34,103 bases of DNA from the IMG/VR virus record IMGVR_UViG_3300049489_000433, positions 1 through 34,103 of that record; one strand, given 5' to 3'. Each line of letters begins with the position of its first letter. The first letter of the stretch is position 1. Below the pieces are notes generated by a model, which made no database searches, was not told the DNA's origin, and saw only the letters and a list, made by a program, of their open reading frames with translations. This document shows, one piece after another, positions 2,424 through 5,374 of this stretch. This stretch comes from a virus. Made by a program: the position numbers and the translations under genes.

Positions 2424-2927
2424 CTATTGCTTTATAATCGGCATGAGTAGGGCACGTGCTGTGCCGTTGTTGTTGGTGAATACGATTGGCTTCTTTGTAT
2501 CAAACAAGTGCATAGTCACACCATCTAACTTGCCCTTGTTTTGCTTCGCAAGTTCCTGGAACGCCCGTGCTATGTCCTGTAGGTATTCGGGATTGACTGA
2601 AACCGATATGGTCGCGTCCTCAATGTTAGGTATAACGCTTTCATATTTTGGGAAACGATCACCAGCAAGGGTGAAACTCGCGGGATATAGTGCACCTTTT
2701 GATTTGATCGTAGCGTCATTGCCTGCCATTTCTATATGTTCTATTGTTTTTGCACCCTTAGGGAGTCCAACAATGACGGGGGCTGATAAGTCCTTTCCGG
2801 CATCGCTCTGTACCTCTATGAGTCGGTATGAGTCTGTAGCCACTAGCTTGTCCTTAGTAACAAGCACTCCTGCCAGCTCTTGCTTGATATCGGTCTTCGC
2901 TGTAAATGCTGATAGATTTTTTATCAT
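2424..2927 (-). CDS. Abbreviated DNA sliding-clamp-like protein (167 aa)
   Basis: Several hallmarks of the DNA polymerase III beta subunit (DnaN) appear in the right order: LVATDSYRL (28-36), matching the domain II VATDGHRL signature; FPKYESVIP (92-100), matching FPDYxxVxP at the end of domain II; VNPEYLQDIARAF (111-123); and a C-terminus RALLMPI (158-164), matching the terminal VMPM segment. DnaN is about 366 residues with three domains. Here domain I, the start of domain II and the first half of domain III are missing. It may be a processivity factor for a phage or host polymerase, or a decoy that binds clamp partners. The start lies 2 bases after the upstream stop. Family similarity is fairly clear; function is inferred. 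Confidence 0.75.
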   Translation of the reverse strand: MIKNLSAFTAKTDIKQELAGVLVTKDKLVATDSYRLIEVQSDAGKDLSAPVIVGLPKGAKTIEHIEMAGNDATIKSKGALYPASFTLAGDRFPKYESVIPNIEDATISVSVNPEYLQDIARAFQELAKQNKGKLDGVTMHLFDTKKPIVFTNNNGTARALLMPIIKQ

Positions 2928-2929
2928 GG

Positions 2930-3196
2930 TTATATATATAGTGTTGCGTCCAATAGCTCGCGCTTGTCCAGCGATACGACTACTCCAAAGTGCTCATTGA
3001 GTCCTTGCACGCTGTAGAGCTTGTGTGTGTCCATGTCTAGCCATGTTGGAAAGCCTCCTATATATGACTGGCCGTTATAGCGCATGCTGTTAGTCTTTGA
3101 CTGCTTTTTGACCTCTTGCACCGCGTCCGCGAGCGTGTCGCACACTTTTAGCGTGCGCGTGCCTGTCTTGTTGTGTTTGATAGCTTGATACCTCAT
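2930..3196 (-). CDS. Hypothetical protein (88 aa)
   Basis: A soluble protein whose C-terminal half (about residues 55-85) alternates hydrophobic and polar residues like beta strands. The frame is open to 3280, but the ATG at 3196 is preferred because AAGGA lies directly upstream (3198-3202), one of the few good ribosome sites in the window. It ends 2 bases before the clamp gene, so the two are co-transcribed. No family is recognised. Confidence 0.65.
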   Translation of the reverse strand: MRYQAIKHNKTGTRTLKVCDTLADAVQEVKKQSKTNSMRYNGQSYIGGFPTWLDMDTHKLYSVQGLNEHFGVVVSLDKRELLDATLYI

Positions 3197-3305
3197 ATCC
3201 TTGTGTAATGGTTGCGAATAAATAATGGGGCATGGTAAATATCCGCACCCCGTCACTGCACTGAATAGGTATATATTCAATACAGTGCGGAAGGCCGATT
3301 GTGTG

Positions 3306-3846: not shown

Positions 3847-4389
3847 TTATATGTGGCGGAAGTAATGGCCGTCTTGCTCTGAATAATCCATCATCAATTC
3901 ACGCGCTGCATATTCCCAATCTATGCAATAGTGAGGCCATGACTGGCTTATGTTTGCTTCGATGTTTTCCGCATGGTCGCGTGCAAACTCTATGTCACTT
4001 TCAAACTTCCCCACATACGACTCCTCAAAATCATTGAGTGCATGATTGCTCTCAATTCTTAGCGCATGGTATGCGTCGACGGCTTCTTGCCCGTGATCCG
4101 CAATAAGATCAAGCTCGGTCTGTATGTGGTCTGGTGTCTCCTCATTCTCTCTTAACTCCTGCTCGCTCTTTTCGATCTCTACTAGAAACTGCTTGACGGT
4201 CATGTCTGCTCCCCTTCCATACCAATCATCACACCGGAAAAAAGATGCATACACTGGCTCGCCGTCCTTGTTGTGCGTTGTCGGCTCGCCTACTAGAAAA
4301 CCGCTCACGCCCTGCGCGCCTGTTTTCATTATTTCAGGTGGTAATACGCTCAGCATGTCGTCATATATGCGGGCTAGTGTTGTGTTCAT
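3847..4389 (-). CDS. ArdA-like antirestriction protein with unusual N-terminus
   Basis: The C-terminal half (about residues 95-180) matches the ArdA pattern: an LIADHG-type helix, FEESYVGKFES (121-131), FA near 135-136, the YCIDWEYAAREL segment (154-165) and a final GHYF. ArdA proteins are acidic DNA mimics that block type I restriction enzymes; this protein is also strongly acidic. The 180-residue length is close to the family's 165-170, but residues 1-80 (including LVGEPTTHNKDGEPVYASFF) do not look like the usual ArdA N-terminus. The ATG at 4389 is chosen because a longer TTG start (4485) would overlap the small upstream gene. It would act early, shortly after DNA entry. Confidence 0.8.
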   Translation of the reverse strand: MNTTLARIYDDMLSVLPPEIMKTGAQGVSGFLVGEPTTHNKDGEPVYASFFRCDDWYGRGADMTVKQFLVEIEKSEQELRENEETPDHIQTELDLIADHGQEAVDAYHALRIESNHALNDFEESYVGKFESDIEFARDHAENIEANISQSWPHYCIDWEYAARELMMDYSEQDGHYFRHI

Positions 4390-4414
4390 GTTTTTGTTAA
4401 TGAGTGAGTGACTG

Positions 4415-4528
4415 TTAAATATAGAGATCAAGTGTGTGCATGATCCATTCGTGCACGGTTGCCATGAGTGCGAGAGATAGAGCAAAGCAAAAGAACAATA
4501 AAAACATATTTATAGTGTCCTTGTTCAT
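4415..4528 (-). CDS. Tiny membrane protein (37 aa), first gene of leftward operon
   Basis: An ATG-started frame of 37 codons is almost entirely one hydrophobic helix (FLLFFCFALSLALMATV) followed by HEWIMH and a short tail. It lies directly downstream of the strong leftward promoter (4592-4620) and 25 bases before the ArdA-like gene, so it would be the first gene transcribed. The HExxMH-like histidines resemble metal-binding membrane motifs but a 37-residue protein cannot form such an enzyme. It could be a host-membrane modulator. No Shine-Dalgarno is visible. Confidence 0.5.
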   Translation of the reverse strand: MNKDTINMFLLFFCFALSLALMATVHEWIMHTLDLYI

Positions 4529-4907: not shown

Positions 4908-5306
4908 CTACTCCGGTTCCATGAACTCTGAAAATGTGATGGTCTGTTGCGCTGCCTTAGACCTCCACAAATTGATCTCAGCCAGCATTTTAGTTCCGCT
5001 ATCAAGGAAAGGCTGGAACATCTTCACCGCCCCGATCTGAATCAAAGCCCCATCTTTTTCCGGTTCCATCTTCCCACCGTATTTCCTCACGTATGCCTCT
5101 GCCACTTCCTCTGCGGTGTACTCCTTAGAAGCAGGATCACTCTCTTTCCCAGTACCACCACCTTTGTGTTTCGTATACCAAACCTTCAAATAGTACCCCG
5201 CGATGATAGCAAGAAGCGCTGAACTGAAGGTTTTATGTCCCTCTTCCTTCTGGATGTATTCGATAATCTCCAAAGCCCTAGGTGTAAAATCTACTGTTTT
5301 TCTCAT
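4908..5306 (-). CDS. Putative ribbon-helix-helix regulator (132 aa)
   Basis: The first 40 residues read as a short strand (RKTVDFT) followed by two helices (RALEIIEYIQKEE and FSSALLAIIAGYYLKVW), the layout of Arc/CopG-type DNA-binding domains. The remaining 90 residues are a charged linker and a helical region that could mediate oligomerisation. ATG at 5306 is preferred over 5330 because the domain begins there. It is a single-gene unit with its own promoter (5375-5404) and terminator, placed between the leftward and rightward operons, which suits a lysis-lysogeny or early-late regulator. The fold is a pattern call, not certain. Confidence 0.6.
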   Translation of the reverse strand: MRKTVDFTPRALEIIEYIQKEEGHKTFSSALLAIIAGYYLKVWYTKHKGGGTGKESDPASKEYTAEEVAEAYVRKYGGKMEPEKDGALIQIGAVKMFQPFLDSGTKMLAEINLWRSKAAQQTITFSEFMEPE

Positions 5307-5374
5307 ATTAGTCACATAAATTACATACATTAGTAGTGTTTTTACTGTAATCTTTCATACAGAATTAGTCAAAT

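Follow-up and report, generated by a model that had tools for sequence, protein, structure and literature searches.

A short sliding clamp encoded by an IMG/VR virus is a divergent member of a widespread phage family derived from DnaN

The short clamp gene and its surroundings

The window analyzed here is the whole stretch of 34,103 nucleotides held in IMG/VR virus record IMGVR_UViG_3300049489_000433, which may itself be a fragment. Near its left end, the minus strand carries an intact open reading frame that runs from an ATG at 2927 to a TAG at 2424–2426 and encodes 167 amino acids; the plus strand of the same interval contains many stops and no open frame. The gene is part of a leftward gene block. 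The gene, its parts and its neighbors are listed below.

1172–1738, leftward block: integrase-like gene (Pfam)
2424–2927 (stop codon included), minus strand: short sliding-clamp gene, 167 aa (PHROG, TIGR00663, custom profile, AF2)
2433–2612, minus strand: second half of domain III, residues 106–165 (profile alignment, AF2)
2439–2447, minus strand: LMP, residues 161–163, equivalent to E. coli V361-M362-P363 at the pocket
2628–2654, minus strand: FPKYESVIP, residues 92–100, equivalent to E. coli FPDYRRVLP 241–249, with pocket residues P242 and V247
2628–2927, minus strand: domain II part, residues 1–100 (profile alignment to E. coli DnaN and AF2 secondary structure)
2820–2843, minus strand: VATDSYRL, residues 29–36, equivalent to E. 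coli VATDGHRL 170–177, peptide-pocket wall
2930–3280, minus strand: upstream open reading frame, 116 aa, matching no family (Pfam, PHROG)
3847–4485, minus strand: ArdA-like gene (Pfam, PHROG)
4908–5330, leftward block: short HTH-like gene (Pfam)

The TAA of the upstream open reading frame lies only two bases ahead of the clamp ATG, so the two genes are probably translationally coupled. The ArdA-like product (212 aa) matches ArdA antirestriction proteins in its C-terminal part (PF07275, E 2.9e-8); its best phage relatives are found in Cellulophaga phages, and those in IMG/VR are L139–L143. Two repeats were seen by eye next to the clamp gene. An inverted repeat, CTATTGAG...CTCAATAG, lies directly 3' of the gene at 2333–2370 and is perhaps a terminator or an integration site, and the palindromic GGTACCG / CGGTACC recurs in the gap to the left of the gene, at 2185–2270. 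Further right, between 8957 and 33006, most of the large rightward open reading frames past the terminase had no PHROG match at E 0.01.

Homology to DnaN and predicted fold

The product of this gene is a short clamp derived from DnaN. Its residues 2–121 align to positions 138–269 of the DnaN profile TIGR00663 (E 2.6e-6, with a score of 26.7 bits that lies below the equivalog cut-off of 137.65). The identification as an abbreviated sliding clamp that the preliminary description had made from the letters holds in several independent tests. PHROG_3007 covers residues 6–164 (profile positions 14–184 of 190, E 1.2e-16). PHROG_947, a DNA polymerase processivity factor, and PHROG_6615 also match, with E values of 1.4e-13 and 8.4e-10, and a custom profile of 66 short phage clamps aligns to residues 2–164 with 62 bits. 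Pfam by itself does not call the clamp (PF02768, E 0.08). The DnaN signatures that had been noticed earlier, a VATDxxRL-like element, FPxYxxVIP and a C-terminal LMP, are indeed present, at residues 29–36, 92–100 and 161–163.

Predicted as a monomer with AF2 from an 82-sequence alignment (pLDDT 87, pTM 0.83), the protein adopts a beta-clamp fold, with Z scores of 13–14 against bacterial beta clamps and 153 residues superposed on E. coli beta across positions 138–366 at ~3 Å. The model also matches many phage proteins of 180–210 aa in BFVD. The model of a canonical 178-aa family member (pLDDT 94.6, pTM 0.89) likewise matches beta clamps with Z scores of 13–14, with 165 of 178 residues aligned. 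In the window protein, residues 1–100 comprise the first helix without its leading strand, the ATD element, a second half that lacks its helix, and the FPxYxxVIP linker; residues 106–165 comprise a helix (113–129) followed by three strands, with LLMPI at the end.

PHROG_3007 and many RefSeq records name these proteins RusA-like Holliday junction resolvases. That label is the one point in favor of such an activity, whereas in sequence and in fold these proteins are beta clamps: family members match PF02767 in 69 of 82 cases and the processivity-factor PHROG in 75 of 82, and the leading sequence and fold matches shown are all beta clamps, with no RusA among them. We therefore give the resolvase reading practically no credence. 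The same label stands on PHROG_12598, and the sampled members of both PHROGs are short beta-clamp proteins; it has propagated into RefSeq phage annotation, and correcting it would improve the annotation of many phages.

Retained and missing parts of the clamp

Bacterial DnaN has three domains and about 360–400 aa (366 aa in E. coli), which the window protein, with 167 aa, falls well short of. The two share domain II, the second half of domain III, the pocket motifs and the C-terminal MP(M/I), and they differ in that the window protein has neither domain I nor the first half of domain III, while its domain II lacks the helix of the second half. When E. coli DnaN was divided into pieces, the short-family profile scored 87 bits against domain II. 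Domain III gave 26 bits for its second half and 5 bits for its first, and domain I gave no match. The preliminary description had listed the start of domain II, the first half of domain III and all of domain I as lost, and that list was right. One further loss can be added to it: the AF2 models of the window protein and of the canonical member both lack the helix in domain II's second half. In the window protein, the leading strand of domain II is missing as well.

In E. coli beta, the dimer interface is formed by domain I packing against the first half of domain III (I272, L273), while three elements build the peptide pocket: the first half of domain II, the linker that joins domains II and III, and the second half of the latter. 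Judged by these known positions, the retained parts would form a single contiguous arc of the beta clamp round the peptide pocket, with the dimer interface gone on both sides, and the missing parts would correspond to the material that closes the ring. Because both partners in the known interface, domain I as well as the first half of domain III, are lost, a normal dimeric ring is not expected, as had been proposed.

A widespread family of short phage clamps

With the relative from phage C1 as the tblastn query, matches were found in 294 GenBank phage records; coverage of the query reached at least 80% in 282, and the phages include those of Escherichia, Salmonella, Vibrio, Klebsiella and Burkholderia. 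A pattern scan of IMG/VR for a start codon near D(V/I)RYYLNG gave at least 120 stretches, a few of which are truncated, frameshifted or chance matches. At more than 100 IMG/VR loci, the proteins are mostly 170–245 aa long and carry the motif near residue ~20, compared with residue 149 in E. coli DnaN. D(V/I)RYYLNG does not serve here to define the family, since the RYYLNG motif was itself the criterion by which the comparison set was chosen, and members of the window's type are left out of that set. Near residue 20, the window protein has DIKQELAG and the short clamp of a sister contig (L144) has LKPELAS instead, and further members without the motif may exist.

The size and composition that mark PHROG_3007 (170–250 aa, built solely from domain II and the second half of domain III) are essentially those of the window protein at 167 aa. 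The short clamps in this PHROG, among them Escherichia phage C1 ORF26, Bcep43 gp15, phiHSIC ORF2 and the Snoke protein, keep the same DnaN parts and share with the window protein a whole-length profile match and the predicted fold; they are 20–29% identical to it, and its N terminus is ~7 residues shorter. Several had been recognized by their annotators: the Bcep43 record reads "DNA Pol III b subunit fragment", phiHSIC ORF2 is labeled as similar to a polymerase beta subunit, and the Snoke protein was named "DNA polymerase III sliding clamp" by HHpred. A beta-clamp-like open reading frame of 151 aa has also been described in Erythrobacter phage R6L (PMC5463345). Our search of the open-access literature found no experimental paper on a short phage clamp, and no solved structure of one appeared among the PDB matches listed, which are all 366–517 aa long. 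Protein scans of viral contigs and genome contigs gave no close relative of the window protein. We therefore class the window protein as a new and divergent addition to a widespread family already present in the databases.

The sister contig L144 has a portal and a capsid protein 67% and 83% identical to those of the window, and a short clamp gene at the syntenic spot, with an integrase and an HTH gene on either side. The two clamps are 25% identical (blastp 4e-10), so the gene has either persisted and diverged at a much higher rate than the structural genes or been swapped for another member of the family. Contigs L144, L145 and L146 share terminase, portal and capsid at ~59–83% identity, with mostly the same gene order, and no close isolate phage was found for these phages among those searched.

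These relatives bear on whether the gene is what decay has left of a full-length dnaN from a phage or a host. The chain is without over half of DnaN, the window copy is divergent (about 25–29% identical to its best matches), and the Bcep43 annotators labeled theirs a fragment, all of which fit decay. Against it, the open reading frame is intact, the short form is kept at the IMG/VR loci described above, L144 has it in synteny, and 26 carriers contain no separate piece for domain I. Decay is refuted for the family as a whole and is very improbable for the window gene. The possibility left standing in the preliminary description, that full-length relatives would expose a decayed copy, thus gave way to a short form common to hundreds of phages: the phage family concerned is old and widespread, had been annotated before, and is not peculiar to the window phage.

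Pocket conservation, helix charge and an exposed face

To locate the pocket in the family, we used a list of E. coli positions that we take to line the peptide pocket. With the residues fixed by the search pattern excluded, and with related sequences counted as independent, these positions are conserved above the rest of the protein (median 2.99 versus 1.19 bits, Mann-Whitney p 1.3e-6). The most conserved include G174, P242, T172, H175, M362, P363 and R365. Since full-length DnaN conserves pocket residues too, this conservation may be partly inherited and structural. The window protein retains the equivalents of L155, T172, R176, L177, P242, V247, N320, Y323, M362 and P363, and substitutes four others (G174 to S, H175 to Y, R246 to S, R365 to I). 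Q-E replaces the family's Y153-Y154, and the RYYLNG element is lost.

In sliding clamps, helices line the DNA channel. The two helices kept in the short clamps carry a net charge of +7.6 per 100 aa, versus −2.8 in 39 DnaNs (p about 1e-9, uncorrected for the relatedness of sequences counted as independent), while the charge of the remainder of the protein moves from −2.9 per 100 aa in DnaN to −1.1 in the short clamps. The median pI is 6.9 for the short clamps and 5.3 for DnaN; that of the window protein is 8.7. Its first helix has a charge of +2 and its second of −2. Given this second helix and the substitutions above, both the DNA contact and the pocket appear altered in the window copy.

In the domain III helix, positions 325 and 328 are hydrophobic in 95% of DnaNs but in only 15% and 12% of the short clamps, respectively; the window protein has Q and A there. 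The replacement of hydrophobic by polar residues suggests, at the level of sequence, that this face of the helix is exposed where the lost half-domain once packed.

Replication genes of the carriers

None of 26 carrier records contains a clamp loader gene (PF13177), a family C or family B polymerase, or a gene for domain I (PF00712); a split clamp with domain I encoded separately was rejected on this count. A family A polymerase is present in three of 12 isolate genomes (Bcep43, WF5505 and Snoke) and in one further contig, and no DNA polymerase was detected in the other nine isolate genomes. C1, Skarpretter and phiHSIC are annotated with primase/helicase, helicase, SSB or recombination genes, and with no polymerase except C1 ORF26, which is the clamp itself. 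Klebsiella phage KlebP_265 has been described as lacking a DNA polymerase gene and was grouped with DP01 (PMC11769527), and DP01 is a carrier of the short clamp in our searches. With most of the surveyed carriers having neither a polymerase nor a loader of their own, we infer that the natural partners of the short clamps are host proteins.

A possible loader-free clamp and its rivals

We hypothesize that these proteins are phage mini-clamps, arcs of the beta clamp that touch DNA electrostatically and dock host clamp-binding proteins; we put the probability of this reading at about 0.42. No loading in the form of a closed ring would be required: the short clamp, monomeric or assembled into a small oligomer, would contact duplex DNA electrostatically through its helix-bearing basic face. 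Its pocket would tether host proteins with clamp-binding motifs, such as Pol III alpha, Pol II/IV, ligase, MutS/MutL and others, to phage DNA. Among the mechanisms raised in the preliminary description, which were a higher-order ring, a monomeric polymerase partner and a decoy, the basic DNA-facing helices, the missing loader gene and the polar helix face together make us lean towards a monomeric or low-order clamp that needs no loader. The DNA-binding step would be weakest for the window copy, in view of its lost RYYLNG element and acidic second helix.

Phage T4 encodes a clamp as well, gp45 (228 aa), which differs in being a trimer with two full domains and its own loader. An analogy comes from viruses without clamp loaders, whose non-ring, positively charged clamps, the monomeric UL42 and the dimeric UL44, bind duplex DNA directly (PMC9690074). 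For the family, the likeness, by analogy only, would extend to a clamp-like fold, the lack of a loader, basic DNA-facing helices and polymerase docking (PMC9690074), although in the window protein the second helix is acidic, and the logic of the mini-clamp would be that of herpesvirus UL42, which docks its polymerase. UL42 differs in having two complete clamp domains and in serving a dedicated viral polymerase.

The main rival is a soluble monomeric decoy that mimics the pocket of the host clamp and has no need of DNA contact. It would titrate repair polymerases, MutL, Hda, ligase and Pol III off the host clamp, and so shut down host replication or repair. The pocket is the conserved feature, the ring-closing parts are gone and most of the surveyed carriers have neither polymerase nor loader, all of which fit a decoy. 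In the isolate phages Bcep43, Snoke, C1 and WF5505, moreover, a solitary clamp gene lies within the head genes but is read from the other strand, an arrangement reminiscent of an accessory gene. This orientation is not general, however: both neighbors are opposite at five of 50 IMG/VR loci, compared with 13% of genes overall, so an accessory-gene ("moron") placement of the family as such is unsupported. The positive charge gained by the family's helices is also something that a decoy would not need, and we consider this reading somewhat unlikely.

The retained parts could alternatively build a new ring. Each chain would contribute three beta-alpha-beta half-domains, two from domain II and one from domain III, and four chains would thus supply twelve half-domains, as in every known clamp ring, with the second halves of domain III pairing across a two-fold axis. 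The single contiguous arc deduced from the E. coli positions, basic helices suited to a DNA channel, and the age and diversity of the family, as expected of a folded functional unit, are all consistent with such a ring. Domain II has, however, lost the DNA-facing helix from its second half, which would leave a gap in the channel lining; the domain III helix face at 325 and 328 looks exposed and not re-paired; and there is no loader gene in the carriers, although the host loader could serve. We regard the new ring as unlikely.

The clamps described so far are either closed rings or non-ring factors bound to a viral polymerase in viruses that lack loaders. Phage proteins reduced to the pocket and half of the fold, in a large family whose genomes mostly encode no polymerase and no loader, would be minimal clamps or else decoys against host replication, and in both cases would show how small a sufficient clamp can be. 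The gene is also carried by laboratory E. coli phages.

Likeness to patescibacterial DnaN and hints of the host

Patescibacterial DnaN contains the stretch IRPELxGVLF...ATDSYRLAEK, which is resembled by IKQELAGVLV...ATDSYRL in the window protein and by LKPELASVLF...ATDGFRL in its sister. Across 74 aligned columns, the window protein is 42% identical to one patescibacterial DnaN; the patescibacterial proteins are full length, unlike the window clamp. In a tree of 120 columns, all short clamps, including the window's, fall on one side of a well-supported branch. Constrained trees that place the window and sister clamps among the DnaNs are not worse (p-AU 0.62 and 0.68), and the sister clamp shifts into the DnaNs when the deleted region is left out. 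We consider it unlikely that the protein is a four-copy ring, or another non-classical assembly, that encircles DNA and serves the host replicase on phage DNA, or that this clade shortened a DnaN of patescibacterial type independently.

Relatives of the window's terminase (26–31% identical by blastp) occur in three of 380 genomes of one Patescibacteria phylum, one of them next to an integrase, and no clamp gene was found near these three terminases. In genome G165, which belongs to the same Patescibacteria phylum as G021, the locus L217 / L220 encodes a terminase 31% identical to that of the window with an integrase-like gene adjoining it; this locus is possibly a prophage of a distant relative, and as such a hint at the host range.
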